From the NCBI RefSeq assembly GCF_900142515.1, contig NZ_FRBC01000017.1:1-64000 (forward strand): DNA of 64,000 nt. The letters are read 5' to 3'. This stretch comes from Pseudoselenomonas ruminantium (GTDB lineage: Bacteria; Bacillota; Negativicutes; Selenomonadales; Selenomonadaceae). Numbering within the stretch: the stretch's first letter is position 1; each line of letters begins with the position of its first letter. Both the position numbers and the translations under genes were made by a program. Shown in pieces: positions 27,045-47,323 of the stretch. The notes under the pieces were generated by a model, which worked only from the letters and a program-made list of their open reading frames with translations, had not been told where the DNA came from and did no database searches.

Positions 27045-27059
27045 GCCTCAGCCCTCCTG

Positions 27060-27662: not shown

Positions 27663-27721
27663 CGAAAGCACTCCAATAGTCAAAAGAAACTTATAACCTT
27701 ATAAGTATACCACGAAGGACA

Positions 27722-27757: not shown

Positions 27758-27792
27758 ACTCTTGACACGTCAAATTGACATGTCAGATTCCA
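27741..27792. repeat. Direct repeat copy 1 (3' end of the HepT-domain gene)
   Basis: TTGACCAGTCA, ten bases, then 31 bases that are identical to 28992-29022. The 31-base part spans the last codons and stop of the toxin-antitoxin gene. Copy 2 is at 28972-29022; the two copies bracket the gene. Confidence 0.85.
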
Positions 27793-28501
27793 AGCGTCGC
27801 TGTACTTCCGCATCCCATGCCAGTAATAACGATGCATATTTATCTTTGATAAGCTGATAAACTTCCAAAGCCGTTGACTCATTGTAAGTATGCGCTGATA
27901 AATTACGCTTTTCCTGCATATCCAGCCAAGCCTCTGCGTCAGCTATCATGCCCTGCTTCCAGCCTTCACGTATACTGGAGCGAGGGCTGCTGGCCTCAAT
28001 ACCTTCGTAGTCAAGACATGCCTTCATCAGCTTCCAAGCTAACTCAAAGCAGAACTCAAAGCGCTGAATTGTAGCATCCAGATACATATCATCAGCATCA
28101 GGTTCCTTGGAAAGTGCCACCTGCAAACGCATCAAAGCACGATGATAATCTTCTTTTTTGGCTTCTATCTGAATTCTCGTCATAAGTGATGTCCCTCCTG
28201 CACTGCTAAAAATCAGCTTACCATCCCTGTCTATAGCCTGTTTCAACTTTTCATTGGTCTGACGCTTATAATCAATAATGTCAAAGGTATACGGAAGGCT
28301 GCTATCCTCAAAGGCTATCGACAATTTCGTAATAGCATCCGCATTCCCATAGACAGCTAAATCCACATCAGATGAAATCCGAGCATCACCACGTGCCCGA
28401 GAACCAAACAATTTTACCCATTCCAGCATGCCTGAATGCTTTTGAAGTATTTTCAATATTTCCTGCCAAAATCTAATTTTTATAGTATATAACGTATCCA
28501 C
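27770..28501 (-). CDS. Fused MntA-HepT: nucleotidyltransferase antitoxin plus HEPN toxin
   Basis: 243 residues from a GTG at 28501 (GAGGG 10 bases upstream; an ATG at 28531 lacks a ribosome site). Residues 1-105: minimal nucleotidyltransferase with GSRARGD (33-39) and SDVDL (44-48). Residues 107-243: HEPN domain (HI0074-like) with the HepT motif R199-x4-H204-x-Y206. Separate mntA and hepT genes form a toxin-antitoxin pair in which MntA adds AMP to the HepT tyrosine and silences its RNase. Here the two are in one frame, but a perfect ribosome site lies before Met107, so free HepT could also be made. Confidence 0.88.
   Translation of the reverse strand: MDTLYTIKIRFWQEILKILQKHSGMLEWVKLFGSRARGDARISSDVDLAVYGNADAITKLSIAFEDSSLPYTFDIIDYKRQTNEKLKQAIDRDGKLIFSSAGGTSLMTRIQIEAKKEDYHRALMRLQVALSKEPDADDMYLDATIQRFEFCFELAWKLMKACLDYEGIEASSPRSSIREGWKQGMIADAEAWLDMQEKRNLSAHTYNESTALEVYQLIKDKYASLLLAWDAEVQRRLESDMSI
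28181..28198 (-). promoter_or_regulatory. Internal ribosome-binding site before the HepT domain
   Basis: GGAGGG (28193-28198) is 9 bases upstream of an in-frame ATG (28181-28183) exactly at the junction of the two domains. This is the relic or active start of a separate hepT cistron. Confidence 0.75.
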
Positions 28502-28664
28502 GACAAATCTACCCTCACCACGAACATTCATCCATACAACTATTTTCTACTAAAGGTCCACATGCCATCCTCATTTGAATTTTTCTCGCAGACACACCTC
28601 CAGGCGTGCAAGCACATGCTCTGGAATAAGACTTTTAAACATACTATCTTCATTCTCTACATAC

Positions 28665-28693
28665 AAAAGAAAGGCACCAGACAGTCTGGTGCC
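28665..28693 (-). terminator. Terminator downstream of the BREX operon
   Basis: Perfect 9-bp stem GGCACCAGA / TCTGGTGCC with a 3-base loop followed by TTTCTTTT on the minus strand. First good terminator after the cysteine desulfurase stop at 29074, about 380 bases earlier in the transcript. Confidence 0.75.
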
Positions 28694-29073
28694 ACAAGTT
28701 CCAAAAAGAGCGGTTTTATGCTGGCTGTCAGCCTAAGCACCCTTGCGAGTGCCTGTTGTCGCCGGTATATTAAGTCCCCGGCGCGGACTTGCCTTATCTC
28801 CCTGGCATGGGCTCAATGCCCTTACGAGCATCTATAAGTCTCAGCATTTAACCTGCCTGAGCACAGTACAGCTTTTACGTGCCGCTACACGGAGCTTTTG
28901 CTCACTCATATTATACATGATGATATTCTCCATAGCAATATCTGCCTGATAATTTTCATACCCCACAAATTTTGACCAGTCAACACTTCATTTGACACGT
29001 CAAATTGACATGTCAGATTCCAGCGACACTAAACATCCCCATTCCACATCAAAGATTATACTACATATTAAAT
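28694..29073. other. Non-coding or decayed stretch between the BREX operon and mntA-hepT
   Basis: The minus-strand frames hold only short fragments (one of 35 codons ending SEQKLRVAARKSCTVLRQVKC, another of 32 codons), broken by stops, which look like remains of a gene. The span 28992-29022 is a copy of the hepT 3' end. 28502-28664 likewise holds no recognisable gene. Higher GC patches near 28740-28830 differ from the AT-rich BREX genes. Confidence 0.5.
28972..29022. repeat. Direct repeat copy 2 (decayed hepT 3' end)
   Basis: Positions 28992-29022 are identical to 27762-27792, preceded by TTGACCAGTCA as in copy 1. On the other side (to about 29060) similarity to the HepT-coding strand continues at a lower level, with stops in frame. 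It therefore looks like the tail of a second, lost copy of the gene. Confidence 0.7.
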
Positions 29074-30201
29074 TCAGACACATATTTTAGCTATTTCCCT
29101 AGCAACAATCAAGGCATCACCTATTGTATTGTCAGCAGAAAAACTTATCCTAACAGTTCCCACTGCATATTCCATCGGAATATGCAATGCTTTTATAACG
29201 CTTGATAATTCCATATCACGTGAATTACAAGCCGATCCCGTCGCAATGGCTATTCCCAGTAAATCAAGACGATTTACAATCATCTCTCCATTAGCATTCT
29301 TTATTGACAAGCTGATTGTTCCTTCAACATTTGATTCAGCCTTATTAACTATGCAATCAATATTCGCTTCTCGTACAGCATATAGAAAAGCTTGTCTTAC
29401 TTTTGCAATATGCTCCCTATCGCTTTGCATGTTCTTGCAACTGAGTTCCAATGCTTTCGCCATACCTACAATGCCAGCAATATTTTCTGTTCCTGCTCGC
29501 ATGCCATTTTCTTGACCGCCGCCATAAATCAATGGTGCTATCTTTATACCATTGCGCACATACAAAAATCCCATTCCCTTAGGCCCATGAAACTTGTGCG
29601 CAGAAGCAGATAGCATATCAACATGCAGATCATTAACATCAATAGGAATATGCCCCATAGCCTGTACTGCATCTGTGTGAAAACATGCATTTACCTTATG
29701 CGCCTGCACTGCCATTTCTTTTATTGGCTGCACAGAACCAATTTCATTGTTCACTAGCATAATTGAGACAATCGATGGTAAATTCAGTTCATGCAATGAT
29801 GCTTCGTATGCCTGATGATTAACAATGCCAGTATGGCTAACTGGTAATCTTATAACTGTGCAACCTCTACTTTCCAAGAATGTACAAGTATTTAATATAG
29901 CATGATGTTCAATCTGGCTCGTGATGATGCTGACCGGATTCTTATGTGCTGCAACAAAACCTTTCAATGCCCAATTATCAGCCTCACTCCCGCAAGAAGT
30001 AAAGTAAATCTCTTCCGGCAATGCACCGATTTTTGATGCAATTGTTTCTCGTGCATTCTTGATTTGACGGCGGATTTTGGTTGCCTGTCGATAAAGTGCT
30101 GATGGATTGTAAAAGTCATCGACAAAATATGTACGCATTATTTCAGCAACTTCCGGATACATCGCTGTTGTCGCTGCATTATCCGCATAAATATTATATT
30201 T
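29074..30201 (-). CDS. Cysteine desulfurase (NifS/IscS/DndA-type) of the BREX operon
   Basis: 375 residues from a GTG at 30201 (MKYNIYADNAATTAMYPEV) with GGGG 5 bases upstream; the in-frame extension to 30231 would overlap the previous gene. PLP lysine in 'SASAHKFHGPKGMGFLYV', 'HTDAVQAMGHIPI', 'GSEADNWALKG', 'NNEIGSVQPIKE', and the catalytic cysteine loop 'IATGSACNSRDMELSSV'. Releases sulfur from cysteine as a protein persulfide. Last gene of the BREX-like operon, AT-rich like its neighbours; likely sulfur donor for BrxP, as DndA/IscS is for DndC (inference). Confidence 0.9.
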   Translation of the reverse strand, partial: KYNIYADNAATTAMYPEVAEIMRTYFVDDFYNPSALYRQATKIRRQIKNARETIASKIGALPEEIYFTSCGSEADNWALKGFVAAHKNPVSIITSQIEHHAILNTCTFLESRGCTVIRLPVSHTGIVNHQAYEASLHELNLPSIVSIMLVNNEIGSVQPIKEMAVQAHKVNACFHTDAVQAMGHIPIDVNDLHVDMLSASAHKFHGPKGMGFLYVRNGIKIAPLIYGGGQENGMRAGTENIAGIVGMAKALELSCKNMQSDREHIAKVRQAFLYAVREANIDCIVNKAESNVEGTISLSIKNANGEMIVNRLDLLGIAIATGSACNSRDMELSSVIKALHIPMEYAVGTVRISFSADNTIGDALIVAREIAKICV

Positions 30202-30223
30202 CACAAAATCCCCTACCCTAAAT

Positions 30224-30421
30224 TTAGTCAAACAAGGTGCAACCTTGTTCTTTAAATTCTTCTATCTTATCCTGCAAATCTTCTACTGATACCTCTAAAT
30301 AATCCGCCAAACAATCCATACAGTAATATTCCGTTACAGATTCACCTAATAGCTTTTTATTGACACCAATCTCATCCTTAGATAGACTTTCTTTACCACA
30401 GCCAATGCAAACAATATTCAT
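30224..30421 (-). CDS. Small zinc-ribbon-like protein in the BREX operon
   Basis: 65 residues from ATG 30421 (a GTG at 30430, overlapping the brxL stop, is the alternative). Two cysteine pairs, CIGCGK near residue 5 and CMDC near 34, are spaced as a zinc ribbon, followed by an acidic helix 'EVSVEDLQDKIEEFKEQGC'. No family recognised. Sits tightly between brxL and the desulfurase; may be a partner or scaffold of either. Confidence 0.75.
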   Translation of the reverse strand: MNIVCIGCGKESLSKDEIGVNKKLLGESVTEYYCMDCLADYLEVSVEDLQDKIEEFKEQGCTLFD

Positions 30422-30426
30422 AATAT

Positions 30427-31887
30427 TCACAACTCATTCACCGTTATATCTGGTATAGATTTACCTCTAAACTCATCATCTAATAAACCCAATTGATATT
30501 TTATTATTTCACGCATATATCTCGCTGGATCTAGACAATATTTCTTAAAGTCACGAGCCGATATATCCTCTGCCTCTCTTACATGCGGGAATAACAGTTT
30601 CAAAAAACCTGTTGCAATCCTCTTTATAGCCTCTGTATCTCTAGTATCTGCCTTTTCCGGTACATTGGTTCTAGCATCCACAATCATGCGATAGCTCGAA
30701 TCGTCGCGCAATGCATGCATAATCGAAGAAAAATATTCAGAATTCAAACTCCATCCTTCAATTTTCAGGTCATCGTTCATACGTGGCAAATCCCAACCTT
30801 TTAGGAAACCATGGAATCGATCTATCAAAGCACTCTCATGAAACACTTCTGGTAATTCCTGAAAAACATTCTCTCTTACATCAGCTTTCATCAAATCTGA
30901 CGAAATATTCCCCAACAATACAATACCTGCATCCGCTGCACCTTCATGATTACCAACAGTATACTTACCGTTTTCCATGTAACCTTTCAATGCACCACGC
31001 ATTTCATCAACATCAGAAAAATGTATCGTTTGTACTTCATCAAGTGCAACATAATCATGCCCAAAAACCAAACCTTCTGAGCGTCGGGCAATATCATAGA
31101 ACATACGTGCCCTTGACATGGTTCCACCTGAAGATAACCATCCATACCGACTTACGGAACCAAACAAATATGATTTACCAGTTCCCTTAGGTGCTAATTC
31201 AATTAGATTTAAACGTTTCTCGACAAACGGAAGCAATCTTGTTATCATTGACAATTTCTGCTTTTCATCCCGATAGCCGGCAGCATTATAATCCATTGCT
31301 CCTAAGATAATGTCAATCCACTCTTCTAGCGAAAATGCAGCACGAGCATCCTTAAACTCGTCTAGATCTACAACGTACGGACAGAAATCTTTAAAGCTAG
31401 TCAATTTAATCTTTCCTGGTTCTTGTTTGCTGATTGGTGGCTGATAGCCAAGCTCTACAATCCCCCAGTTTTCCTCTGACTTTAACAATGCCTCACTACA
31501 TTCAGACCATACATTTGCAGGAATAGTAGTATCTTTATAACGCAAATTAAAATCAGGCAACGAAAAAGATATCTGTTGAGTCTTTATATCAATATCAACA
31601 GAGATTTTTGCCAAGAATTTTACTCGTTCATTCTCATGAATAACTCTATTCTTTATTGACTTCCAGTCTTCTGCCTTCGGAATGAATTTACGAATAAATT
31701 CTACTACATCTTCTACTTCAATATCTCCATTGTCATCCTGGAATCTTTTCAAAACCCAATCACGCATAAAAGAAGGAAGTTTAAATGATGAAATGAAACT
31801 ATTCTTTTTTAAGTCTTTATACACAACCATTTCATCGAAATAATCTTTTAGTTTTTCTGCAAACTCATCTGACGTATAATCAACCAC
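30427..31887 (-). CDS. brxL: BrxL-like AAA+ protein, short form without Lon protease domain
   Basis: 486 residues from a GTG at 31887 with GGAGGG 7 bases upstream. N-terminal BrxL domain ('LKDYFDEMVVYKDLKK'), AAA+ with Walker A 'LAPKGTGKSYLF' (231-242), 'SRYGWLSSGGTMSRARMFYDIARRSEGLVFGHDYVALDEV' (Walker B), 'GNISSDL', arginine region 'ALIDRFHGFLKGW', and lid 'AIKRIATGFLKLLFPH'. Classical BrxL (about 650-700 residues) continues into a Lon-like protease with Ser/Lys; that part is absent here. BrxL forms DNA-bound rings in BREX defence. Stop overlaps or abuts the zinc-ribbon gene. Confidence 0.88.
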   Translation of the reverse strand: MVDYTSDEFAEKLKDYFDEMVVYKDLKKNSFISSFKLPSFMRDWVLKRFQDDNGDIEVEDVVEFIRKFIPKAEDWKSIKNRVIHENERVKFLAKISVDIDIKTQQISFSLPDFNLRYKDTTIPANVWSECSEALLKSEENWGIVELGYQPPISKQEPGKIKLTSFKDFCPYVVDLDEFKDARAAFSLEEWIDIILGAMDYNAAGYRDEKQKLSMITRLLPFVEKRLNLIELAPKGTGKSYLFGSVSRYGWLSSGGTMSRARMFYDIARRSEGLVFGHDYVALDEVQTIHFSDVDEMRGALKGYMENGKYTVGNHEGAADAGIVLLGNISSDLMKADVRENVFQELPEVFHESALIDRFHGFLKGWDLPRMNDDLKIEGWSLNSEYFSSIMHALRDDSSYRMIVDARTNVPEKADTRDTEAIKRIATGFLKLLFPHVREAEDISARDFKKYCLDPARYMREIIKYQLGLLDDEFRGKSIPDITVNEL

Positions 31888-31900
31888 CTAAACACCCTCC

Positions 31901-34216
31901 TCAAAATCCAAGATCTACTTCATGAGTTTTCTTTTTAATCTCAAATTCCAATTCTATACCAGTAGCCTTATTATCTTCATATATCTCAGCTGTATATCTA
32001 TTTTTACGTTTTATATCATCCAAATCGAATTCAGCATGTTTATTATCCACAGTCAATCTACCCACATAGAATTTATTTTTTATACGTAACTGCGGCTTAT
32101 GCATGGGCATATTGCAGAAAAGAATGATTTTTGTCTTCTCATTATGTTTATGTTCAATAACATCATTTTCAAACACATAAGTCAATCTATTAGGTTTAGT
32201 TGTTATAGCAATTATTGGAACTAACACCTCCTCCAGTGAAGCGCCACCATGGACTTCCACTTCAGCTTTATGGCCACCCTTAAAACGTTCATAATTAGCC
32301 AAAACGGCATATCCATTTTCGTAAGTTGCAAAAGGTATTTGTGGATCACTATCCGCTGGACAACATCTACCACTATGTCTGCCTTTTTCTTCTAATTCAA
32401 TCGTAGCATTCTCTGTTTCGTTTATAACAGCCAATCTGCTGGCGCCATGATCTGAAAAAACCACTGCACGTTTGATAACTCCTTGAGATAACTTTACTCG
32501 AATATCCTTAAGCACTTCATCTATAACAGCCAATTCATCTAATAAGTGAATCGGTTGTTTTACTTTTTCATAATCATAATAGTTTACACCATGCTTTATT
32601 TCATCTAAATCTTTAGTAACTCTACATGTATTTTGAAAGAAATCATCAAAATCTTTATTCAAGCTAGTTATAGATGGTAAATCACAATGTGCAACACGTA
32701 TTTCGGCAATCAAACCGTACTCTTTACACTTATTTTTTATATAAGAAAGATACTCCACCCCTAGCGCATCAACAAAATAAGGCATTGCATCACGACATTG
32801 AAGATTTTTCAACGTCGCCAATCTCGTTAATATACGATTATAAGGACGTTTTTCTGCGATATCATTCACTTCTAGCAAAAAATCATCTGTTATCTTATTT
32901 GATATTTTCTGTTTCTTATATTCAGAGAAATAATCCGTCAACATTCCTGCTAATCCAGCATCATCTATTTGGATAATCCCTTCATTGAATACATATGTAT
33001 CCATATAAAGATTAACTTGTGGAAGATTCGTCTCCAAAATATAGTTAAATTCTTTACGGCTATACTCATAATAGCTAAGCCATTTCATAGAACAAATTTG
33101 CTCATCATGGGTACGATTTGTCAAATAGAAAATAGCTTTGCGCCCTTTTTGCCCAACCTCATTGCAAAATTGTGATGACAATTTTGGATTGTCTTTTATC
33201 TTTTCTAGAAGTTTTTTTCGTTCCTCATAGTATTGTCTAAAATTGCTATCATCCACATCTATACTTAGTATCGAAAAATATAACGATCTCTCTAAATCCA
33301 ACTGATTCTTTATATCACTTGCAGCTATGTTAAGATAGGAATTATCTGTTCCCATAACTTTAATTGCCAACCAATAAAGCCACAAAGTATACTCATCATT
33401 AGATTGTAATACGTCACCTATACAAATCTCTAAATCTAAAACCTTAAATTCTTCTGCAACAATTTTCCCAAAATTATTTTCTTCTAACTTACACTTCAAC
33501 CATTGCCATTGAAGCTCAGTTCCATTTTCTTCCACAACACAGCTACTAAAAGCAGGAAATTTTTTGCAAATAATATCAAAGCTACCAGGACCTTGATTCA
33601 CACTATATACGGCTCGTCGAAACAATGCAGCCGAATATGTAGTTACCATAGACATCGTTAAACTATCTTTGATGGATTCATTTGTCATCTGTTCCAATGC
33701 TGACAATAATTCCCCAACGCCATCATAAAGCTTACCTTTTGCGTAATTTGCATTACGTTCAATAATGATTTGTGGTAAAGGATTGCAACTGTTTCCTAAA
33801 AATATAATTCTTCGCTTTAATCGAATATCTTGTTTGCATTTTTGGTGCAGATAATCACGGCAATGCATCAACAATATAACAGTATGTTCACGACATGTTT
33901 CATTTACTGCTCTATCCAAATATTCCTCTAAAAAAATCTGACTATGCAACATGCAAGCTTGGGATAAACCCACTAAAACATGAACGCCATCTGAAAACGC
34001 ATTATTATACGCACGTTCAACATCTGGTATAGAACCATCCTTACAATAATTTGAAACATAAATAAACTTCTTTGCAACATCAATGCGAAGTCTAGATATC
34101 AACTCATGGAATAAATCATAATCCTCTGTATCAACAATCAAAGGGAACCCCGTTGACACATTGTTACAATATGATGCGACTTCATTTATGCATTCAGCTA
34201 CATCCAGACTTCGCAT
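31901..34216 (-). CDS. pglZ: PglZ-domain protein (BREX core)
   Basis: 771 residues, ATG with AGGAG 8 bases upstream. The C-terminal half holds the alkaline-phosphatase-like PglZ domain: metal site 'AMPYFVDALGVEYL' near 490, 'RAVVFSDHGASRLAVI', and 'HGGASLEEVLVPIIAI' near 680. The N-terminal 450 residues are family-specific and helical. PglZ is the one protein shared by all BREX systems; members have nuclease/phosphodiesterase activity in some types. Third core gene of the type 4 order brxP-brxC-pglZ-brxL. Confidence 0.92.
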   Translation of the reverse strand: MRSLDVAECINEVASYCNNVSTGFPLIVDTEDYDLFHELISRLRIDVAKKFIYVSNYCKDGSIPDVERAYNNAFSDGVHVLVGLSQACMLHSQIFLEEYLDRAVNETCREHTVILLMHCRDYLHQKCKQDIRLKRRIIFLGNSCNPLPQIIIERNANYAKGKLYDGVGELLSALEQMTNESIKDSLTMSMVTTYSAALFRRAVYSVNQGPGSFDIICKKFPAFSSCVVEENGTELQWQWLKCKLEENNFGKIVAEEFKVLDLEICIGDVLQSNDEYTLWLYWLAIKVMGTDNSYLNIAASDIKNQLDLERSLYFSILSIDVDDSNFRQYYEERKKLLEKIKDNPKLSSQFCNEVGQKGRKAIFYLTNRTHDEQICSMKWLSYYEYSRKEFNYILETNLPQVNLYMDTYVFNEGIIQIDDAGLAGMLTDYFSEYKKQKISNKITDDFLLEVNDIAEKRPYNRILTRLATLKNLQCRDAMPYFVDALGVEYLSYIKNKCKEYGLIAEIRVAHCDLPSITSLNKDFDDFFQNTCRVTKDLDEIKHGVNYYDYEKVKQPIHLLDELAVIDEVLKDIRVKLSQGVIKRAVVFSDHGASRLAVINETENATIELEEKGRHSGRCCPADSDPQIPFATYENGYAVLANYERFKGGHKAEVEVHGGASLEEVLVPIIAITTKPNRLTYVFENDVIEHKHNEKTKIILFCNMPMHKPQLRIKNKFYVGRLTVDNKHAEFDLDDIKRKNRYTAEIYEDNKATGIELEFEIKKKTHEVDLGF

Positions 34217-34230
34217 TACATCATCTCCTA

Positions 34231-34260
34231 ATTATTTTTCCTTATTTTTCCTTATTTTTC
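34231..34260. repeat. Ten-base tandem repeat at the brxC-pglZ junction
   Basis: A unit reading GGAAAAATAA on the minus strand is present about three times. It contains the brxC stop codon (TAA) and lies just before the pglZ ribosome site. A change in copy number would alter the brxC tail or the spacing to pglZ. Confidence 0.8.
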
Positions 34261-37200
34261 AATATTTCAATACCAACATTTAGATTATCCGTTATAAGCT
34301 CACGCAGATAATAGCGCAAATCATTAAGTTCCAATTCATCAACAACTTTTAAAGCTTCCATAAAACCTTCGTCTCTGTATATATCACCTGCATGATTTTC
34401 CAGTAAATGTTTTACACTTTTATCTTCGAACCAATTATAAGGTGAAGTCTTAGCGTTAGATTTTAGATATGCACGAATGTCATTTACGTTACCTAAAATA
34501 ACAGCATAATCCTCCACAACACCATCCAGGAAACACTTATCTCGTTCCTGTTCACTTGCTAAACGTTCAAAAATATTACTACTTGCATCATCTGTTAAGA
34601 AATCAATTGTACGCTTAACATCTTCATCCTTAGGCGAATCATTATTAAGGATATTTAAATATGGCCTTATTCTTTGACGATCTTCATCGTTAAACATGCA
34701 TAGAATCGGCGTTTGATATTTATTTGACCATTCTCTAGGATTCTTAGTGCCAGTTTTTTCCTCCCAAAGTTTACGCATCTTCATTTTAGCTTGAGATGCT
34801 AAATATTCCTTAATTTTTCCTTCTACATAGCTATAGTATTCTGCTTTTGAATATGTAAACAAACCATCTACTAACAGTGCATAAATCTGTTTGGCATCTT
34901 CATCAGATAGTTTCTGCAAAGGAACCTTGGCAATCTCTTTAAAGTACTCAAACTGCTTATCATAAACCTCATCAAACAATTTACGAGATGTTGTTAAGGT
35001 TTCATAAAAATCATCTTTATCCTGCTCTAATAAAGTCCCAGTCTTTTTCATCTTATAGAGCATCTCAATAAACGGTTTCAATTCGCCTCTCATCTCAACA
35101 ATTGCCTCAGATGAAATATGCATCTTATGCGTACGGGCATTCCATTGAGTAACCGTTTCTCCCAGTTTGGAACTTTGTGGAAGGCTAAGATTGCTTTCAC
35201 GTATAATATTGTATTCAATGATTACACGGTCAATTTTTTCTTTTGCTGTATTAACATCCCACACCCAAGTGGCAGCATCTGCATTGAATCTTTTTCTTAC
35301 CTTTTCGATATATCTGCCATCGTCTCCTACTTCATTCGCTAGGTTAGTTAGTTCTCCATCTCGATATTGCGCTATAAACGCCAACATGCCATTTTGGCAC
35401 GCATCTGGGCTAATTACAGAAGCTAAGTCATCAGCCAAAACACTATAATCTAAGAATTTTCTTCCCAAATCATTGGCAATTGCGCTCTCATCTACTCCGC
35501 CCATATTGCCATTATTAGCCAAGCCACAATACAAGTCTATCGCTTTTTCAATTTCCGCACGCTCAGTAACCAGTTTTTCCTGCTTATCCAAAACATACTT
35601 TACGCACCACAAGGGGAAAGGTAGTTTACGTAATTCAAGACGTACACGATCTCTTGCTTGTTCTATAGAACCACAGCACTCCGGATCGATTCCAAAGATT
35701 TTTGCCGTTGCTTTTAAGAATGCACTTTGTTCAGCACTCATAGCAACCAAGAACTCTTCCTTATATTTCTTATTTTCAATTACAGACTGATTGATGCCAT
35801 TGGCAATCATGTTTTTCATTTTGTCCGCCGTCATAGGAGTACTGGTAGATCCATTACTCCAAAAATAATCGCCTTGTGTATATTCCTTCAACAGGAAGCC
35901 AAGAACAAATGCCGTTATATTACACGGCATATAACCAAACTTAGGCTTACGCATTTCGTCGAACATATAAAGGATACTGATTCTTCCATCTTCCTTAAAT
36001 TTTTTCTCAATCATATCCTCTATTGCTAATTTTGCTTTCACTAACGGAAGAGTTTGCTTCATTGGATCTTCCCAATATTTGTCAACATGCCAAGCGCCAT
36101 TAACAACATTTTCCAAGCTAAATCTCTTATTGTTAGAATTAAATGTACCCTTCAATTCTTGATTTATACCGCATTCGGCGCCCATTGCTAACGGTCCTTT
36201 GGTAAACATGTTGTCAACAACTTCGTTTTGTTCCAGCGCATAAGGATACACACGCAAGTTCATCGACTTCAGTTCTTCTATTAGTGCATTCTTATTAGCA
36301 CAACGGAAACCGCTAATATTATCTTTATTGTATAAAGTAAAGGAACCATTCTCTACACAGGATTTCCATTCATCCAGCTTATCGGCTGCCTGCTTAGTAT
36401 ATCCTTGAGCTTGTTTTGCATCTTTCTTTAAATAATACTTCGCATATGCGGATGAAGTAACATAATCATTAAAATTTTCTTCCCCCATAATATTGGCAGA
36501 TGCATCGACAAATGTAATATCACGACACTCGTCCTTCTTCATATTCTGTTCAATTAAATCACGAATACGAGTTGCTTCCGACTCACTTTTAGCAAAAGTC
36601 AATATCACAGGGAATGTGTACGCCCAATCTTTCCTAATTATACTATTTAATGTATTAGTAAAATCATCAACAGTTGCCGTAAACACTTCCAATCGCATCT
36701 CTAATGATTTCGGTATCTTTAGGGCCGTTGTTAATGTTGCATCAAGCACTAAGTTTTTAGTTTTCTTTTCCTTGCGTATATCTTCTTGAAGCTTTTCTAT
36801 TTCATTGTTATCATTCTGACTAAGTGCAACAACATATTCTACACGATTCCCCGCCGGCCGCTTGAATAACACCTGTTTTTTCTCAAGTGCATCAGCAATA
36901 TAATGACCTTTATATTCCGGCCATCCAGACACCCCTGAAAATGCCAAATCAATATTTTGATCATTAGGTTTAAGTAATTCGACATTACCTACTCGCTGGG
37001 ATATAGCTTGTAAAAGTAAAATTACCTTAAACACGCGCTTTTCATCATCGTTAAATCGTTCATTATCTACAATATTATAAGAACCCAATATTGTTCGAAC
37101 AGTATCCGTTAATCCACTTCTACCCTGAACACAGAAAAATTCCCATAACATATCTACAGTAAGCAAGTTATGATTTGAAAGCGGGCCGACATTATCAATG

Positions 37201-38474
37201 AACCACTTAAAACTCTTTGCATCCATATCATTGCTAAGGATAAAGTCAAACATACTTCTCTGGTTCGAAGCAAATACTACAGATATGTGTTTTAATAACA
37301 GTGCAGCATAAGGATGAATAGGAACAATTTTACACAAATCTTCATCCTTCAGAAATGTTTTACTCCCCATACTATGCTTTTTAGCATCATCAACAATGAC
37401 TTGCCGTACAGAAATCAATTGATCATTCAAATCATTGGCATAGTCCTGCCATTCTTCTTCCATAATGGGATCATTATTTTTTTTCATGGCTTGCGCCATC
37501 AAACGAAAAGCCATATTTTCTGGCAATTCAATTTTAATCGGCGGCACAAAACGTCCCAGTATTTTCTTTGCATCCTCAGAACTTGCAAATAAAGATGTTG
37601 ATTCATGAGAAACAATCATAAAGAAGAAGTTAGAATCTTGACTAACCTGTACTAATGTTTGGAATCCCGTCAATGCATTACGGTTATTATGGAAATACTC
37701 CGTGAATTCATCCCAAATAAAGAGTATCGCACTTAAATGATTTTCTCGAATAATAGTACGAATCCATTCAGCCATATCCTCAGCTGACAGACGCATAGCC
37801 ATAATATCATTATCTCGTGCTACCTCTAAGAGATTGCGCATAAGCTCCATTACTTTACTTGGATTATTCTCTTTCAAGTCTGCTATAATATGATCGATGT
37901 TTTTATCCGGAAATTTCCATGCATATTTTTCATCACTTATAAGGCTAGCAAAATATGTTTTATTTGCTTCTTTTGCTTCCAGCCAATTCAAAGCTGCCAT
38001 ACGCAAAGATGACTCACCATGATTTTTTATATTATGTTTTTCTAATGCAGCAAGTATACTTTCCTGTATAGAAATAATAAGGTCATTATCCGAATGAATC
38101 GATGATGATCCAACGCGATGTATGGTAATCATATTGCCATTATTTTTATCGGCAATAATTTTATCACACAACTCTTTTTTTAGGCCATATTCATTAAAAT
38201 ATGCTTCCACTTCATCATCAGATGCTTCCAGCAGAGATTTTACCGTCAATGCTGCATGTGATTTACCAGTACCATAAGCACCTTCTACCCAAAGGGATAG
38301 ATTTTGCTTCCCCGATAAAACTGTATGTGTTTTTTCCAATAAATTTACAAAACTTTCATGCGGATAATACTGTTTCCATGATACTTTTCCTTCTTGGATA
38401 AGCTTTGCGGTTATTGCCGGATAAAATTTTTCATCTATAGAAAAATAATTTTTATATGTTGTATTCTCTCCCAT
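34242..38474 (-). CDS. brxC: BrxC/PglY-type large ATPase
   Basis: 1410 residues, typical BrxC size (about 1200-1400). N-terminal P-loop 'WVEGAYGTGKSHAAL' (62-76), Walker B-like 'AILFIWDEFTEYF' near 250, and 'SHESTSLF' as sensor. The long remainder is helical, with coiled coil near 560-600 ('NEIEKLQEDIRKEKK'). BrxC is an ATPase required in BREX, thought to act with PglZ on DNA. ATG with AAGGGG about 11 bases upstream. AT-rich; 18 bases after brxP. Confidence 0.92.
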   Translation of the reverse strand: MGENTTYKNYFSIDEKFYPAITAKLIQEGKVSWKQYYPHESFVNLLEKTHTVLSGKQNLSLWVEGAYGTGKSHAALTVKSLLEASDDEVEAYFNEYGLKKELCDKIIADKNNGNMITIHRVGSSSIHSDNDLIISIQESILAALEKHNIKNHGESSLRMAALNWLEAKEANKTYFASLISDEKYAWKFPDKNIDHIIADLKENNPSKVMELMRNLLEVARDNDIMAMRLSAEDMAEWIRTIIRENHLSAILFIWDEFTEYFHNNRNALTGFQTLVQVSQDSNFFFMIVSHESTSLFASSEDAKKILGRFVPPIKIELPENMAFRLMAQAMKKNNDPIMEEEWQDYANDLNDQLISVRQVIVDDAKKHSMGSKTFLKDEDLCKIVPIHPYAALLLKHISVVFASNQRSMFDFILSNDMDAKSFKWFIDNVGPLSNHNLLTVDMLWEFFCVQGRSGLTDTVRTILGSYNIVDNERFNDDEKRVFKVILLLQAISQRVGNVELLKPNDQNIDLAFSGVSGWPEYKGHYIADALEKKQVLFKRPAGNRVEYVVALSQNDNNEIEKLQEDIRKEKKTKNLVLDATLTTALKIPKSLEMRLEVFTATVDDFTNTLNSIIRKDWAYTFPVILTFAKSESEATRIRDLIEQNMKKDECRDITFVDASANIMGEENFNDYVTSSAYAKYYLKKDAKQAQGYTKQAADKLDEWKSCVENGSFTLYNKDNISGFRCANKNALIEELKSMNLRVYPYALEQNEVVDNMFTKGPLAMGAECGINQELKGTFNSNNKRFSLENVVNGAWHVDKYWEDPMKQTLPLVKAKLAIEDMIEKKFKEDGRISILYMFDEMRKPKFGYMPCNITAFVLGFLLKEYTQGDYFWSNGSTSTPMTADKMKNMIANGINQSVIENKKYKEEFLVAMSAEQSAFLKATAKIFGIDPECCGSIEQARDRVRLELRKLPFPLWCVKYVLDKQEKLVTERAEIEKAIDLYCGLANNGNMGGVDESAIANDLGRKFLDYSVLADDLASVISPDACQNGMLAFIAQYRDGELTNLANEVGDDGRYIEKVRKRFNADAATWVWDVNTAKEKIDRVIIEYNIIRESNLSLPQSSKLGETVTQWNARTHKMHISSEAIVEMRGELKPFIEMLYKMKKTGTLLEQDKDDFYETLTTSRKLFDEVYDKQFEYFKEIAKVPLQKLSDEDAKQIYALLVDGLFTYSKAEYYSYVEGKIKEYLASQAKMKMRKLWEEKTGTKNPREWSNKYQTPILCMFNDEDRQRIRPYLNILNNDSPKDEDVKRTIDFLTDDASSNIFERLASEQERDKCFLDGVVEDYAVILGNVNDIRAYLKSNAKTSPYNWFEDKSVKHLLENHAGDIYRDEGFMEALKVVDELELNDLRYYLRELITDNLNVGIEILKNKEK

Positions 38475-38492
38475 TACTCTCTTTTCCCCTTA

Positions 38493-40910
38493 TTATAACA
38501 GTTCCAATACATCTTGAGATTTATGCTCGCTTCGCAAAGTAATTTGATCCAAATTCAATGTAAACGTAGCTGAAATAAATGCTGGATAATTAGCACTAAG
38601 TCCGTTCAATATAGGAACCATCGTCTCACGATCAAGTCCAAATATTCTTGTAGGACTGATACCTTCACGCTCGATACTATCATCTAACAGCGTTTCCAAT
38701 GAGAATTGATACATACCATCACATGCTTCAGCAAATTTATACAAAGAGTACAATATAACTATGTCATTGGGGTTAGGCCATGACGTTCTAGCAAAGGATT
38801 TTAATTTTATCATCTCGTTGCCAGAAGCAGTAATTCTTACATCTGCATCTACCATCCCTAATACTTGCGATGTCCCCAATGGTGTTTTGACAAACATTAT
38901 TTTCAAAGCATCTGCAACATTTCGTCTCCCCAAACCTTTTGTATCATTTTCCATATCTACTGCTAGCATATCTTTTATTTCATCGGGTGTATATGCACGA
39001 TTTAGATCTAATCTTTCAATTACCCATCTAAAAGTTGGTGTATATACTATATTAGCTAAAATCAGCCCCCATAAAATATTTGCATCATTTTTCACACGTA
39101 TAATTTTCTCTGTAAATTCCGTCGGAATATTTCTTGTATATTTATCTCCATCTATATTCCTCTTGTATTCCACCATCTCAGCATCTCTTAAGAAATGAAC
39201 AAATGCATCCTTCTTCTTATTTTGAATAATTCCATCACCATCAGATAACCAAAAATCCTTACCACCTTCATAATTCAAAAATGTATCTACCCATTCTTCT
39301 CGAGTCCCAAAAGTAAAGTACCTATCCAATCCACTCATACTCTTTCCCTCCACGTTTTTGTTCTTTACTGAACTATACAACATGCAATGGTCTCTTATAT
39401 CATGACACTTAAAGCAATGTACGCATAACTCACTTATCTTAACACTACCGCTCATATCAATACAGTGCAATTTACATTCAGCTTCGCATATACCGCATCG
39501 CCTACAATAGATACTTTTTATTATTACACTTCTAAATAAAGACTTAAACTTTATAAAATCTTTTGTATTATCCTTCATAGGCAATTTAAACAAGGTAGTT
39601 TTAGGCAGCTGATTAACCATCACTGCGAATTCATTACTTTTAAACGACACTTTATATTGATCAGACGATATTTTATTTATAGCTCCGAGTGTTTTTGCCC
39701 ATTCCATCCAATTCAACTCTGGTAGATATGCTTTTATTAATAATGAACCGTTATCATCCTGTATTTCGAATTTATCTTTACCTACCTTTAATTCTCGCCC
39801 ACTTTTTCTAGTTCTCCAATATCCATTATCTATAAATTGCCGCATTTCGTTAGCATCATATTTTTTCCCACTCGTTTCTCTTATTATTTCTAGGAATTTA
39901 TCTACTTCATCTTTATATACCATTCGCTTAATATACTCATGTTTTCCCGTAGAATTAGGACATACCAAACATCCTGCACGTGAGCTTCCTTTTTTATATG
40001 CATTATTCAGTGGAAGAGAATTTGCATATATGTATAAGTATACTTCTATTGAGTTCCAATCCAAAATTGTATGACAACTGTACTGACCTTGATGTTTCTT
40101 TCCTTCACTTAAATCATCATACATACTTCGCTTCAAACTCTCTTCAGCACGGACGCCTGTAAAAGCCATACCTGTAAAAGAATCTTTTTTTATTATTTTC
40201 CTTATTAAATTTATTTGTGGAGATGTTTTATGAACACTACAGCACCATCTAATTGCAGTTGATGGTGGTCCAAAGCACCGCCAACTCTCGTCAGGAGATA
40301 ATGTAGATTTTGCCCTGTAAAATCTAACACCTTTACGTTCGTATTCTCTTTCCATATAATTTACTAGAGTATATGTATCTGAGAACTCCATTTGAGTATC
40401 ACCAAATAAAATAAAAAAGCTATCACTGGGTAATGCTTTGGCAACTATATCTGCAGCAACTATACTATCTTTTCCTCCACTAAAAGCGACATAAAAGACG
40501 TCTACTTTCCTCTTATACTTTTTATAGTAATTAAAAACTTTCTTAATAGTTTCCTGTGTTAGATTTTCTAACAAACCTGCATTTTTACTAAGCATTGCAG
40601 GAACATCAACTAACTCCAGTTTACGCTGTACTTGATCAGATTTATTTAGCACTATCAATTCTGGTTGTGTAAATAGCGATCCACCTTGTGTTTTTGCAAT
40701 CTTTTCGCCCTTATAATAATAATTGTTATTTTCCGCCCACATTATTGGATATGTTTCATCTCTAGGATAATCAAAAAACTTATCAAAACCAAGTAAATCT
40801 AATTCCCTATAATAAACAGGTCTTGCCTCCATACTCATTTTTTCTTGCTCTGGGAGTAATACAACGCCACCAGTTTCTTTATCCCACACATATTTATACA
40901 ATTCATTCAC
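38493..40910 (-). CDS. brxP: BrxP: PAPS-reductase/DndC-like protein with ferredoxin-type clusters
   Basis: 805 residues from a GTG at 40910 that overlaps the upstream gene by 8 bases. Residues 144-149 SGGKDS are the ATP-pyrophosphatase loop of PAPS reductases and of DndC. Further cysteines (C212, CC at 223-224, C279, C314-x2-C317) could hold a cluster as in DndC. Residues 469-509 contain two ferredoxin-like sets, C469/C472/C475/C479 with C483 and C496/C499/C502 with C509. The C-terminal 270 residues are uncharacterised. BrxP defines BREX type 4, which has no PglX methylase. Likely activates DNA for sulfur insertion (inference from DndC). Confidence 0.9.
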   Translation of the reverse strand: MNELYKYVWDKETGGVVLLPEQEKMSMEARPVYYRELDLLGFDKFFDYPRDETYPIMWAENNNYYYKGEKIAKTQGGSLFTQPELIVLNKSDQVQRKLELVDVPAMLSKNAGLLENLTQETIKKVFNYYKKYKRKVDVFYVAFSGGKDSIVAADIVAKALPSDSFFILFGDTQMEFSDTYTLVNYMEREYERKGVRFYRAKSTLSPDESWRCFGPPSTAIRWCCSVHKTSPQINLIRKIIKKDSFTGMAFTGVRAEESLKRSMYDDLSEGKKHQGQYSCHTILDWNSIEVYLYIYANSLPLNNAYKKGSSRAGCLVCPNSTGKHEYIKRMVYKDEVDKFLEIIRETSGKKYDANEMRQFIDNGYWRTRKSGRELKVGKDKFEIQDDNGSLLIKAYLPELNWMEWAKTLGAINKISSDQYKVSFKSNEFAVMVNQLPKTTLFKLPMKDNTKDFIKFKSLFRSVIIKSIYCRRCGICEAECKLHCIDMSGSVKISELCVHCFKCHDIRDHCMLYSSVKNKNVEGKSMSGLDRYFTFGTREEWVDTFLNYEGGKDFWLSDGDGIIQNKKKDAFVHFLRDAEMVEYKRNIDGDKYTRNIPTEFTEKIIRVKNDANILWGLILANIVYTPTFRWVIERLDLNRAYTPDEIKDMLAVDMENDTKGLGRRNVADALKIMFVKTPLGTSQVLGMVDADVRITASGNEMIKLKSFARTSWPNPNDIVILYSLYKFAEACDGMYQFSLETLLDDSIEREGISPTRIFGLDRETMVPILNGLSANYPAFISATFTLNLDQITLRSEHKSQDVLELL

Positions 40911-43632
40911 CCTTGAGTTCTTTACGTTTTATTTTTGCTTTTTCGAGGATAACATCTATCCCTTTATATGCAGCTCTTGTTATATAACCGTCTTCTTTAA
41001 GCTCTTTCAATGCTTCATCTGTTGTTTCACATTCTTTATGAAGCAGTACATCAAAAATTAAATCATCATATTCAATACTTCCTGCATCATGACGCACCAT
41101 AACACCATTAAAATCATTTTCTGAAAACGAACTATTCATCAGCTGAAATTTTTCGCTGAAGCTATATATATAACTCTCTAACAAATATCCAGTCCATCGA
41201 TAGTTTTCAACGCTAGGAAAGTTACTAATCACTGAGCTTATCAATTTTAGCGACATATACTTTCCAGTACATATATTTTCTTCTATGAACGAATCTATCT
41301 TCTTAGCATCAAATGTAATCATTGAGTCCTTGACAAATGTATCTCCATCTATTCTTACCATGCTATCATGTATTATATCATGACGAATTGGTGTATCAAT
41401 TTCCTTGGAAAACTCTTTTAATTCATCCATTGTAAATGTGTCACGTTCGGCACAAAACTCACGATACATTTTTGCTGTATCCACATAGATTTCTTTTGGT
41501 GTAATGAATTTTGCCGTAAAATTAAAATCATCTTTTAGTAAATATCCCAATGCTTTTTGAAAACAGCCATTAGAAAACTTTTCTGTATTAATTTCTACAG
41601 ATTTGCATTCGATATTAATTCTTCTTCTACATTCATCCGCTTGCAGTTGACGAGCTGGTGCATCTGCTATAGCCTCACCTATAACTCTTCTAATTTCTTT
41701 TAACTCCTCATTTGTTACAGGAAAGGTTTCTATTGCCATATAGGTGTTAGATGCTGTGTTTATAATAGATGATGTTGTTCTAACCACCTGTTTGATTTTT
41801 TCCAAAGGGATAAACCATAGTTCTTTTTCTAATTCATCATAAGTGATTTCACGTTGTACATCACGTATATAATCACGTATATTCTCATCTATCTCTACTG
41901 TACAGCCATCTTTCGTAATATGGCCAAAACCATTCACACTATACCCGTGCATGCCCCGGCGTAGTACAGGCCAAAATACATCTTCACTGTAGATGTTCAT
42001 CTGCTGTTCTATCTCATGTTTATAGTGCGGAAATACACAACTCAAATATATACACGAAAAGCCATTTTCGTATATATCATCAAAATCCTCCAATATTTTC
42101 TTCAATAACTCTTTTTGTTTTTGATTATTTTTTAACTTTCTTCTACCATTATCTTCATAAGTAATCTTCTTAATATTCTCTTCAAACACGAGTTTTTCAA
42201 TTTTTCTTCCATATTCTTGTTCAAAGAGATTCGCAAATCTATTAAAATCCAGTCTACTATTTAACTTTATCCCATTAGGGTATTCTCTTTCCATTATTTC
42301 TTGATATGGATTGTTCTCATCAACATCCACATCAAAATTATCATTATCTGTTTTTTCTGTTATTTCTTCCGTCTCATATATATTATAATCATCCTTAACA
42401 AGCTCTTTATGTTCCTCTATATTCTTTTCTGGATTAATAATTGTTTCAACTTCACTATTTTCGTTTTTCACATACCATGAAATATAAAAATCATTCGTTA
42501 GGTCATCATCATTTTTATACCCCAGTCTCTTATTAGCTTCTGTTAGTAAAATTTGAAACTCTGCATTTCGGAATCTATACATCCTTACAATGTTTTTATC
42601 TAATTGAGTTCCACCTTTTCTGCCTCTCCGTCCATCTGTTAATAGATAATCTATTTCTAAGGCATGACGATTAATCGCGCCTTTTCCGCGCGATGTATCC
42701 ATTACATAATCATGCAACTGCACATATTTTCGTAAATGCTCGTAAAATTCTTGGATCACCTCTACAATTGAGCGTCCTTTTAAGTTCACACATTCATATA
42801 TCAACCGCGCTGTCTCATATTCATCCCATTTTCTTTCCATAGGTGTAAACGATAACTCCTTTTTTTCATTACTGGAAGATTTTTCTCTTTTATATTTTTG
42901 CCGCATTAAGAATAATTTTTTATCCTGTGAAGAATAGTCTTCACCTTCAACACCTTGTCCTGCTTCCAATAACTTAAACGCATACATTTTCATGGCCAAT
43001 TCTGAAATTGTAAAAAGTGATTCTGCTTCATCGCTATATTTTCCCATGTGATATTTTTTCAATACTGCACATTCTTGACGCATAATTTCATCCCATACAG
43101 ATGAATCTATATCTTTGATAGCATAATATACATCCAGTAAATGTGCAGTTTCAATCTCATCCCAGCCCTGCATATCCTTGATAATACTATCCATTCTCGT
43201 CTTCTCTTCTAAAACATCGCTTTTCCTCTCATCTTTATCGCTTGTTCCCATAGACTGAGCCACTGTAATATCATTTGCTACATCAACTTTTTCCTGCATC
43301 CCCACATGCGATTTGGCCTCTAATAGCACATATTGAAAAGCTTCTGGATCATTTCTGTACAGTTCGATAAATGATTCCATCCATCTCGCTCCACCACTCA
43401 ATCCTTGCTTCCCACCGGTGACAATGTAATCACAATCATAAAGCTGCATGGTAATTCCTGCTACATTGCGATACGTATCATTAATCTCCATACCGCGCAT
43501 CACTGCATAACGCCTATACAAGTCTGAGAGCTTCTCAATCTCTGCCATCCATTCAGTTTTTGGCCAATCTTTTATTTTCATATATGTATCGATTAGGATT
43601 ACTCTTTCGTATTTGTCAAAAGGTACGCGCAT
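40903..43632 (-). CDS. 909-residue protein with three internal repeats, first gene of the BREX operon
   Basis: ATG at 43632 with AAGGG 9 bases upstream. Three related modules are visible: about 4-112 ('PFDKYERVILIDTYMKIKD'), 152-245 ('GWDEIETAHLLDVYYAIKD') and 263-380 ('KWDEYETARLIYECVNLKG'). Each starts W/F-D-x-[YI]-E-x-[AV]-x-L; modules 1 and 3 end with 'LYR...EFQ.LL.EA'. An acidic linker (385-455) leads to a C-terminal half with several winged-helix-like segments ('REITYDELEKELWFIPLEKIKQVV', 'DTFTMDELKEFSKEI', 'ETTDEALKELKEDGYI'). No catalytic motif seen. Not recognised as a named BREX component. Probable DNA-binding or recognition subunit, translationally coupled to brxP. Confidence 0.85.
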   Translation of the reverse strand: MRVPFDKYERVILIDTYMKIKDWPKTEWMAEIEKLSDLYRRYAVMRGMEINDTYRNVAGITMQLYDCDYIVTGGKQGLSGGARWMESFIELYRNDPEAFQYVLLEAKSHVGMQEKVDVANDITVAQSMGTSDKDERKSDVLEEKTRMDSIIKDMQGWDEIETAHLLDVYYAIKDIDSSVWDEIMRQECAVLKKYHMGKYSDEAESLFTISELAMKMYAFKLLEAGQGVEGEDYSSQDKKLFLMRQKYKREKSSSNEKKELSFTPMERKWDEYETARLIYECVNLKGRSIVEVIQEFYEHLRKYVQLHDYVMDTSRGKGAINRHALEIDYLLTDGRRGRKGGTQLDKNIVRMYRFRNAEFQILLTEANKRLGYKNDDDLTNDFYISWYVKNENSEVETIINPEKNIEEHKELVKDDYNIYETEEITEKTDNDNFDVDVDENNPYQEIMEREYPNGIKLNSRLDFNRFANLFEQEYGRKIEKLVFEENIKKITYEDNGRRKLKNNQKQKELLKKILEDFDDIYENGFSCIYLSCVFPHYKHEIEQQMNIYSEDVFWPVLRRGMHGYSVNGFGHITKDGCTVEIDENIRDYIRDVQREITYDELEKELWFIPLEKIKQVVRTTSSIINTASNTYMAIETFPVTNEELKEIRRVIGEAIADAPARQLQADECRRRINIECKSVEINTEKFSNGCFQKALGYLLKDDFNFTAKFITPKEIYVDTAKMYREFCAERDTFTMDELKEFSKEIDTPIRHDIIHDSMVRIDGDTFVKDSMITFDAKKIDSFIEENICTGKYMSLKLISSVISNFPSVENYRWTGYLLESYIYSFSEKFQLMNSSFSENDFNGVMVRHDAGSIEYDDLIFDVLLHKECETTDEALKELKEDGYITRAAYKGIDVILEKAKIKRKELKGE

Positions 43633-43641
43633 AGCAATCAT

Positions 43642-43788
43642 CCCTTGCTGGCAAAAATTTTATACTTCTTTTTATTATACTACTAACTAACGGATATCGC
43701 TAGTTTTTATTCAAACTAAATTTGCTCGTTAGTTTCAACTTATAGTGTGAGATATTCTGTATAATAGTTATTAGAGGTGATAAACATT
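43642..43788. promoter_or_regulatory. Divergent promoters and candidate XRE operator
   Basis: Minus strand: TATAAT near 43676-43681 for the BREX operon with a poor -35. Plus strand: TATAAT near 43760-43765 for the XRE gene, also with a poor -35. Between them the words CTAACTAACG, CGCTAG, AAACTAA and CGTTAGTTT form imperfect inverted repeats (AAACTAA and TTAGTTT are 9 bases apart). Likely repressor site for the XRE protein controlling both directions (inference). Confidence 0.6.
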
Positions 43789-44157
43789 ATGTCCATCGGT
43801 GACAAAATCAAAGAACGGCGCAAGGAATTAGGGATGACACAGACGGAGCTGGGGCGGCGTGTTCATAAGTCTTCGCAGGTAATCTCCAATTGGGAGCGGG
43901 GCTACACCACCGGCATTGCCGCCGAAGACTTGCAGCATCTAGCCAATGCGTTATCCACCAGCATCTCATTCTTTGTTCCTAACACCTACACTACCACCTC
44001 CCCTGTGCTGGGAACAGACAATACTTCTTCCTACGACAAGGTTCAGGAACAAAAGAAGGACAGCCGCCTAGATTCCCTTATCGCAGAATATCCCCACTTG
44101 GATGAGAAGTCCAAGGACATCATCGATGCCATTGTGGCTCTGTCCAAAAAAGAATGA
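43789..44157 (+). CDS. XRE-family transcriptional regulator
   Basis: 122 residues from the ATG at 43789 (MSIGDKIKERRKELGMTQTELG), GAGGTG 9 bases before. Helix-turn-helix at about 5-58 ('MTQTELGRRVHKSSQVISNWERGYTTGIAAEDLQHLANAL'); short C-terminal part with 'LIAEYPHLDEKSKDIIDAIVAL', common in phage-type repressors. Divergent from the BREX operon, so probably its repressor. Codon use is more GC-rich than the BREX genes. Confidence 0.92.
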   Translation: MSIGDKIKERRKELGMTQTELGRRVHKSSQVISNWERGYTTGIAAEDLQHLANALSTSISFFVPNTYTTTSPVLGTDNTSSYDKVQEQKKDSRLDSLIAEYPHLDEKSKDIIDAIVALSKKE

Positions 44158-44170
44158 CCTTCATATAAAT

Positions 44171-44212
44171 AAGGCTCCGAGCCTGCTGCTGTATCAGCTT
44201 GCTCGGAGCCTT
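44171..44212. terminator. Bidirectional terminator between XRE gene and helicase gene
   Basis: Perfect 12-bp stem AAGGCTCCGAGC / GCTCGGAGCCTT with an 18-base loop, T-rich after it on the plus strand. Separates the convergent XRE and helicase genes. Confidence 0.85.
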
Positions 44213-44216
44213 TGCC

Positions 44217-47221: not shown

Positions 47222-47323
47222 TCCCATCATCTCCTAACACCATTTTACCCCATTATAGCCACTAACTTCTCTCATTTATCGTTACCGTCATAAAATCACG
47301 CGTTAAATAGCCGTAACCCGAAT

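Follow-up and report, generated by a model that had tools for sequence, protein, structure and literature searches.

By its sequence, the operon at positions 29,074 to 43,641 of the window (the whole 64,000-nucleotide stretch analyzed) is a complete type 4 BREX locus, a phage-defense system of the phosphorothioate (sulfur-marking) kind, with an ordinary core in a Selenomonas relative, and its first gene, here called gene X, is a member of an unnamed family heading more than 30 type 4 operons. We lean toward a model in which X is an integral modular subunit that works with BrxC and would direct the machine to DNA sites.

The seven-gene operon and its type 4 BREX core

Seven minus-strand ORFs, each open and intact, occupy the region at the coordinates originally predicted. 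They are also as tightly spaced or overlapping as had been proposed, with neighbor overlaps of 8, 4, and at most 8 nt and gaps of 13 to 25 nt, and are AT-richer than their flanks (G+C of 0.33 to 0.38 versus about 0.47 to 0.56 on both sides). Catalytic motifs were found in the operon proteins, and no Rfam family was detected within 27000-45000. The genes, with the regulator adjoining X, are as follows.

40903..43641, minus strand: gene X, 912 aa, which opens the operon; homologues head brxP in many loci
38493..40910, minus strand: BrxP, 805 aa; PADLOC BrxP model, E 2.5e-228, residues 4-804
34242..38474, minus strand: BrxC ATPase, 1410 aa, with Walker motifs; PADLOC E 6.7e-226, residues 6-1406
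31901..34216, minus strand: PglZ of BREX-4 type, 771 aa; NCBIfam BREX_PglZ_4 (NF033445), 498 bits
30427..31887, minus strand: BrxL, 486 aa, short form without Lon domain; PADLOC 482-aa BrxL model, E 4.8e-221
30224..30430, minus strand: zinc-ribbon protein, 68 aa, with two CxxC motifs (CxxC...CxxC); called as an ORF
29074..30231, minus strand: DndA/SspA/NifS-type cysteine desulfurase, 385 aa; PADLOC SspA 398 bits, DndA 395 bits
43777..44157, plus strand: divergent HTH_3 regulator; PF01381, 48.7 bits

Type 4 BREX was reportedly described by Goldfarb in 2015. Profile searches with PADLOC and NCBIfam placed all four middle genes in BREX, confirming their assignment to the type 4 set, and we regard the core as ordinary because brxP, brxC, pglZ, and brxL match type 4 models strongly. 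PglZ, for which the cutoff of NF033445 ('BREX-4 system phosphatase') is 140 bits, also matched PADLOC (E 4.5e-94) and DUF7864/7863/7862, with DUF7864 at its N terminus, and BrxL also matched PF13337 and PF20442. BrxP comprises a PAPS-reductase domain (PF01507, 90 bits), a Cys-rich ferredoxin-like part, and a DUF4007-like C terminus, and contains SGGKDS and Cys motifs; residues 711-803 scored 17.5 bits against DUF4007 (PF13182), under the cutoff of 27, and the full-length BrxP model spans this region. None of the seven ORFs matched any methylase, in agreement with the predicted lack of PglX, and a small class I methyltransferase is encoded outside the operon at 46619-47230. The type 4 BREX systems described by Rakesh and Krishnan (PMC12839542, 2026) share the brxP-brxC-pglZ-brxL order and families, the BREX-4 PglZ with a DUF7864 N terminus, the Cys-rich BrxP, the lack of an operon PglX, and the desulfurase and small zinc-finger genes.

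The original prediction was of a type 4 core extended by three extra genes that could form a self-contained sulfur-based system. The first part needs amending, since the same study reports the desulfurase (255 of 457 taxa) and the small zinc-finger gene as recurrent in type 4 BREX (PMC12839542), so that both are already known companions rather than new ones, and the X core recurs as well. Zinc-ribbon homologues were present in many type 4 loci, and in our neighborhood check of other type 4 loci over 30 of those sampled had the X core heading brxP. We therefore rejected a local addition of these genes, as all three recur in other type 4 loci, and their absence beside every other such locus, named at the start as grounds for refuting the prediction, did not occur. 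The second part gained some support: the operon desulfurase, which has SAHK and GSAC motifs, is the only IscS/NifS/DndA-type homologue found in the genome, where SufS was the other strong match, and its sequence suggests that the operon may supply its own sulfur donor. The predicted setting beside other defense genes was partly borne out by a PLD/SF2 helicase gene (44217-46652) and an MNT-HEPN-like gene (27770-28531), but the remaining flanking genes looked at were housekeeping-like. The HTH_3 regulator, which possibly controls the operon, is matched at the equivalent position of S. ruminantium S137 by a copy with 79% identity.

Modular architecture of gene X

X combines a variable N-terminal half (residues 1-448) with a conserved C-terminal core (residues 449-903), within which we delineated the following features.

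40933..42297, minus strand: X core, about six predicted tandem winged-helix units; profile of 451±8 aa from 33 proteins
43294..43641, minus strand: WxKYE domain copy 1, all-helical, N-terminal in X; AF2 pLDDT 84.6, pTM 0.80
42520..42834, minus strand: second recognizable copy of the WxKYE domain; profile E 7e-12 and 6e-10

Although X had been described as a 909-residue repeat protein, its length is 912 aa and its repeats are restricted to the N-terminal half, where segments at about residues 1-116 and 270-374 fit one profile and a middle copy is weak. The N-terminal modules are swapped among homologues, with the WxKYE domain also heading X in L138, L139, L140, L054, L091, L116, and L156 and with SAM-like integrase, sigma-70 region 4, or RNAP alpha-CTD domains found in others. 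N termini range from 6 to 992 aa across the 33 proteins, whereas the core keeps its length. Because about nine X proteins are little more than the core (N termini of 6 to 21 aa), the N-terminal modules are not required.

Whole X had no significant match in Pfam, NCBIfam, PADLOC, PHROGs, or PDB sequences. A role for X as a sulfur enzyme was rejected, as it has no such domain. AF2 modeled the core as tandem winged helices with a pLDDT of about 80 to 93, and winged-helix matches were found among PDB structures, with single units reaching Z scores of 8 to 9, a level at which such matches are common. For the core as a whole, no solved structure matched (best Foldseek E 2.4e-3), the full X model returned nothing under E 1e-3 from the PDB and viral models, and Foldseek gave no useful or convincing PDB match for the WxKYE domain. 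Like the predicted X core, DndG, SspB, BrxA, and DUF4007 are multi-winged-helix, DNA-associated defense subunits (PMC10853773, PMC12839542), but they contain three winged helices versus about six in X. No sequence similarity between them and X was detected. No DndG-, BrxA-, or SspB-like chains appeared among the structure matches listed for X, which by itself does not argue against a triple winged-helix fold of their kind.

Distribution and co-divergence of gene X

The X core heads brxP in 26 of the 27 loci in the BrxP clade of the window, the exception (L122) being rearranged, and it precedes brxP in further clades (L057/L058 and L126-L128), with X labels clustering on the BrxP tree. These loci were sampled mainly from the phylum of the window, with class-wide scans of 1 genome around G141, 63 around G399, and 7 around G110. 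In most loci X is closely spaced to brxP. No large gene ahead of brxP is named in the main text of PMC12839542. X was absent from six type 4 loci (L059, L062, L063, L065, L067, and L134), indicating that it is not universal in type 4 BREX. This absence and the highly variable N terminus could suggest an independent cargo or accessory defense gene that lies before brxP by chance. However, all 8 strong X-core matches in a 398-genome scan adjoin brxP, X position and orientation are constant in genomes of many families, and X distances correlate as well as those of core subunits, making such an origin very improbable. The distance matrix of the X core correlated with those of BrxC (r = 0.96), PglZ (0.93), BrxP (0.92), and BrxL (0.88), equaling the values of canonical pairs.

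X was the fastest-diverging protein between two Selenomonas, with identities of 56% for the X N terminus, 72% for the X core, 78% for BrxP, 83% for BrxC, and 94% for BrxL; dN/dS was of little use because synonymous sites were saturated. Scanning plasmids with the X core gave no match, and scanning phage records gave one, to a contig itself carrying X-brxP-brxC. Viral-contig scans with single proteins and one alignment recovered no relative, and two other alignment queries worked. The brxP-brxC gaps of 668-701 nt in L059, L060, and L062 contain broken frames and a shared protein-like motif and are therefore unlikely to hide a large intact gene.

The sigma-70 region 4 and RNAP alpha-CTD domains that X proteins of L057/L058 and L142 carry, together with complete sigma-70 factors directly before brxP in L060 and L068, would be consistent with X being an operon-specific transcription factor assembled from sigma-like and winged-helix pieces. 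We consider this improbable, as no RNAP-binding domain was detected in most X proteins, including that of the window, a distinct HTH regulator, divergently oriented, lies next to X both here and in S137, and X co-diverges with BrxC like a subunit.

Possible roles of gene X in a sulfur-marking system

The desulfurase, the PAPS-reductase-like SspD, and the ATPase SspC of SspABCD resemble the desulfurase, BrxP, and BrxC of the locus, but the PADLOC scores of the latter two are far below those with BREX models (for BrxC, 59 bits with SspC versus 751 with BrxC; for BrxP, 40 with SspD versus 758 with BrxP), and Ssp lacks the PglZ and BrxL present in this operon. The X core was not seen in L069/L070, which encode a desulfurase and a distantly related BrxP homologue but neither PglZ nor BrxL. 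Only the desulfurase resembles a Dnd protein (DndA) well; the operon has no DndD or DndE and does not contain the DndC/DndD/DndE set.

To our knowledge, how a sulfur-marking BREX system chooses its DNA sites has not been established. The analysis itself shows the gene identities, their linkage, the co-divergence of the X core with BrxC and BrxP, the swapping of N termini, and a predicted winged-helix fold, which speak for the site-directing model; for this strain, we infer each chemical step as well as the docking and target choice of X. The desulfurase, possibly together with the zinc-ribbon protein, would pass cysteine sulfur to BrxP, which would activate the DNA backbone and then insert sulfur, with BrxC as the ATPase hub and PglZ and BrxL acting against unmarked phage DNA. 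The X core may dock with the BrxC-centered complex, with DNA, or with both, and its exchangeable N-terminal modules may tune the DNA sequence or state that is recognized. Points against this model include the X proteins that are little more than core, the type 4 loci lacking X, and the want of a solved structure matching the whole core; further, matrix correlation can come from shared descent without contact, and predicted DNA-binding domains already reside in the DUF4007 part of BrxP and in BrxC (PMC12839542).

X-like proteins of 958 to 1320 aa lie directly before PbeA in four PbeABCD (CxC ABC-ATPase) cassettes (L086, L088, L089, and L090), whose effector genes differ; these relatives are remote, three scoring 50 to 60 bits at first pass. 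HARE-HTH and RAMA are domains associated with modified DNA, and the gene before brxP carries one or the other in L064, L146, and L158. With no PT-synthesis genes identified alongside the Pbe cassettes, these findings would fit X as a restriction-arm sensor of invaders or modification, reading unmarked sites or phage-state DNA and licensing PglZ/BrxC while dispensable for PT marking; the X-like Pbe proteins and the HARE-HTH and RAMA domains speak for the site-directing model too. The highest matrix correlation of the X core being that with BrxC also fits such a sensor, as does the rapid divergence of X, which suits sensing of phage factors and site choice equally well. Nonetheless, X adjoins brxP, the gene of the marking enzyme, with ends often overlapping or nearly so, and it showed no known PT-binding domain, and we consider the sensor role rather unlikely, though more probable than the other alternatives.

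A broader form of the site-directing model, which we hold only tentatively, is that X represents a widespread subunit family of type 4 BREX and Pbe-type systems in which a winged-helix docking core and swappable modules set the phosphorothioate motif, much as HsdS or methylase TRDs do. If X is a conserved subunit whose N-terminal modules can be exchanged, it offers a concrete candidate for site choice that can be deleted or swapped. Its recognition as a type 4 subunit would amend the gene list used to detect such systems and, through a first gene of a common kind, would connect Pbe cassettes with type 4 BREX.

The type 4 BREX operon and its setting

Our searches confirmed the original prediction of a type 4 BREX locus on the minus strand at 29074-43641, since BrxL, PglZ, BrxC, and BrxP all scored very strongly in PADLOC, Pfam, and NCBIfam searches and PglZ was called specifically as BREX-4. 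The seven genes (from first to last, a 912-aa gene that we call X, brxP, brxC, pglZ, brxL, a zinc-ribbon gene, and a cysteine desulfurase gene) are packed tightly with every frame open. We observed the expected motifs: BrxP has SGGKDS and a Cys cluster, BrxC has Walker motifs, and PglZ has motifs resembling a metal site; the desulfurase has its PLP lysine and its GSAC cysteine, and the zinc-ribbon protein has two CxxC motifs. All seven genes recur in Selenomonas ruminantium S137 (NZ_FNJQ01000052), together with the divergent HTH gene that lies next to X in the window. As also predicted, the operon is AT-richer than its flanks (G+C of 0.33-0.38, with higher values in the surroundings).

The island sits upstream of ruvAB. 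None of the ten Selenomonas relatives examined has BREX upstream of ruvA, and the genes found there differ; in sampled genome G010, an MNT-HEPN-like gene adjoins ruvA, in common with the window. These observations suggest that this position is a variable site. Two further features lie nearby:

27762-27792 and 28992-29022: exact 31-nt direct repeat on either side of the MNT-HEPN-like gene, itself located between ruvA and the operon
44217-46652: PLD/SF2 helicase protein adjoining the operon, PADLOC "type IV methyl-directed restriction enzyme" (298 bits)

The repeat pair looks like an insertion-site trace; one copy lies near ruvA in G017, and G004, G005, G011, and G012 have none.

The locus had also been described as extended by three added genes. 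Two of these, the desulfurase and zinc-ribbon genes, are already known, as is the sulfur chemistry: PMC11931770 states, citing Yuan et al. (Nat Commun 2026;17:1717), that brxPCZL makes phosphorothioates (PT). The third, X, held up as a conserved, unnamed component of real interest that recurs before brxP and whose function we infer below. No large gene ahead of brxP appears in the main text of PMC12839542; one might be named in that paper's figures or supplements or in Yuan et al.

In the window genome, the operon desulfurase is the sole IscS/NifS-type homolog found, and the other strong desulfurase homolog is SufS in a suf cluster. Among 20 type 4 genomes, grouped by position on the contig and for which relatedness is a confounder, a further strong desulfurase homolog was absent from 6/10 with an operon-linked copy versus 0/10 without one (Fisher p 0.011). 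This pattern fits the idea, put forward in PMC12839542, that housekeeping enzymes stand in where the operon has no desulfurase.

Linkage and co-divergence of X with BREX

Searches of Pfam, NCBIfam, PADLOC, and PDB sequences gave no match to X (40903-43641, minus strand), and PHROGs gave only two weak matches of unknown function (E 0.026 and 0.12). A profile from the C-terminal half of X picked up homologs ahead of brxP in one genome after another, as well as in type 4 loci of viral contig collections. The full core was present in 32 of 48 rows of our BrxP tree, comprising all 27 of the window's own BrxP clade, L126-L128, and L057/L058; as many rows are close relatives within one family, these counts are not independent events. 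Four rows have a partial core (L129, L130, L131, and L156), in six a different large gene occupies the X spot or immediately precedes brxP, and six have no large gene there. Strict adjacency of X to brxP has few exceptions: one gene (L057, L116) or three small genes (L046) separate the two, an insertion splits brxP in L137, and X lies on the other side of brxP on the opposite strand in L122. In L119, the start chosen for brxP makes the two called frames overlap by ~150 nt. L046 (7880-12491) also has two tandem X paralogs ahead of brxP, one of which has DUF4357 at its C terminus.

In the reverse search of a 398-genome phylum sample, all eight strong core matches (E < 1e-100) were beside brxP, which in the eighth (G357) starts at the contig end. 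Since five of these eight also fed the profile or its seed set, this test addresses specificity of place, not sensitivity.

Pairwise distances of the X core correlated with those of BrxC (0.96), PglZ (0.93), BrxP (0.92), and BrxL (0.88) over 19-28 loci (Mantel p 0.001 for all four), and canonical subunit pairs gave 0.88-0.96. This co-divergence shows that X travels with the BREX system over long times; shared inheritance alone could produce these correlations. The X core is the least conserved of the set (median identity 0.23 versus 0.42 for BrxP). Between the window and S137, identity was 56% for the X N terminus, 72% for its core, and 77-94% for BrxP, BrxC, PglZ, and BrxL.

Architecture and proposed role of X

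Core length is 451+-8 aa across 33 X proteins, and the part ahead of the core spans 6-992 aa. The N-terminal parts vary in kind, including integrase-type SAM-like, sigma-70 region 4, RNAP alpha-CTD, and an all-helical WxKYE domain found in the window X and at least seven others; one L046 copy has DUF4357 C-terminal to the core. Other lineages have HARE-HTH (L064, L146) or a below-cutoff RAMA-like match (L158) in the gene preceding brxP; in L060 (10626-12107) and L068 (7977-9422), that gene, ~28 nt from brxP, is a complete sigma-70 factor with regions 1.1 to 4.

The AF2 model of X, built from 12 sequences, had a mean pLDDT of 76 (core mostly 80-93) and predicted about six repeated helical-plus-hairpin units over residues 463-835. 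By VIA-align, unit 583-638 resembled many winged helices (Zalpha, RPA32C, ScpB, and SelB; single-unit Z 8-9 over 54-57 residues) and unit 643-718 winged-helix/LOTUS-like domains (Z about 7). This small fold often yields such values, which thus support a winged helix but no specific relative. For the WxKYE domain, the model gave five helices with good confidence (pLDDT 84.6); no convincing structural match emerged, which does not show a new fold.

Weaker core matches in the 398-genome sample were larger sigma-like proteins. Four of their loci (L086, L088, L089, and L090) encode the X-like protein directly before a PbeA-PbeC-PbeD-like cassette, with PbeA and PbeC called by PADLOC in L086 and L089 and by similarity to L089 in L088 and L090. 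In L088 and L089, PbeA and PbeC flank PbeB-sized frames (61-64 aa), and unrelated genes surround the fifth weak match (L087). These Pbe-heading relatives are 958-1320 aa and sigma-like/winged-helix. Near the L089 cassette, a 735-aa gene resembles the PLD/SF2 helicase protein of the window.

X is most likely a subunit that places a BrxC-centered complex on DNA, in which the core would be the constant part and the N terminus the adjustable part; X might act in marking, in restriction, or in both. Since core-only X proteins exist, the core must suffice in some systems. Because no PT-synthesis genes were identified beside the Pbe cassettes headed by X-like proteins, a role linked to the ATPase machine seems somewhat more likely than one in sulfur chemistry.

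Other BrxP-like genes

Phage-like viral contigs (L143-L145, L147-L155, L157, and L159) encode BrxP-like PAPS reductases of ~525-578 aa that lack the DUF4007 part. Often two of these genes stand in tandem, with a 72-aa zinc-ribbon homolog encoded next; no BrxC, PglZ, or BrxL was seen on these contigs. L149 also encodes a phage helicase, exonuclease, annealing protein, endolysin, tail fiber, and reverse transcriptase. These phage-borne genes possibly serve self-marking or counter-defense. In L059, L060, and L062, the 668-701 nt separating brxP from brxC contain broken reading frames that share an "HQHFGLR.EWLELYL"-like motif, perhaps a frameshifted DUF4007-type gene.
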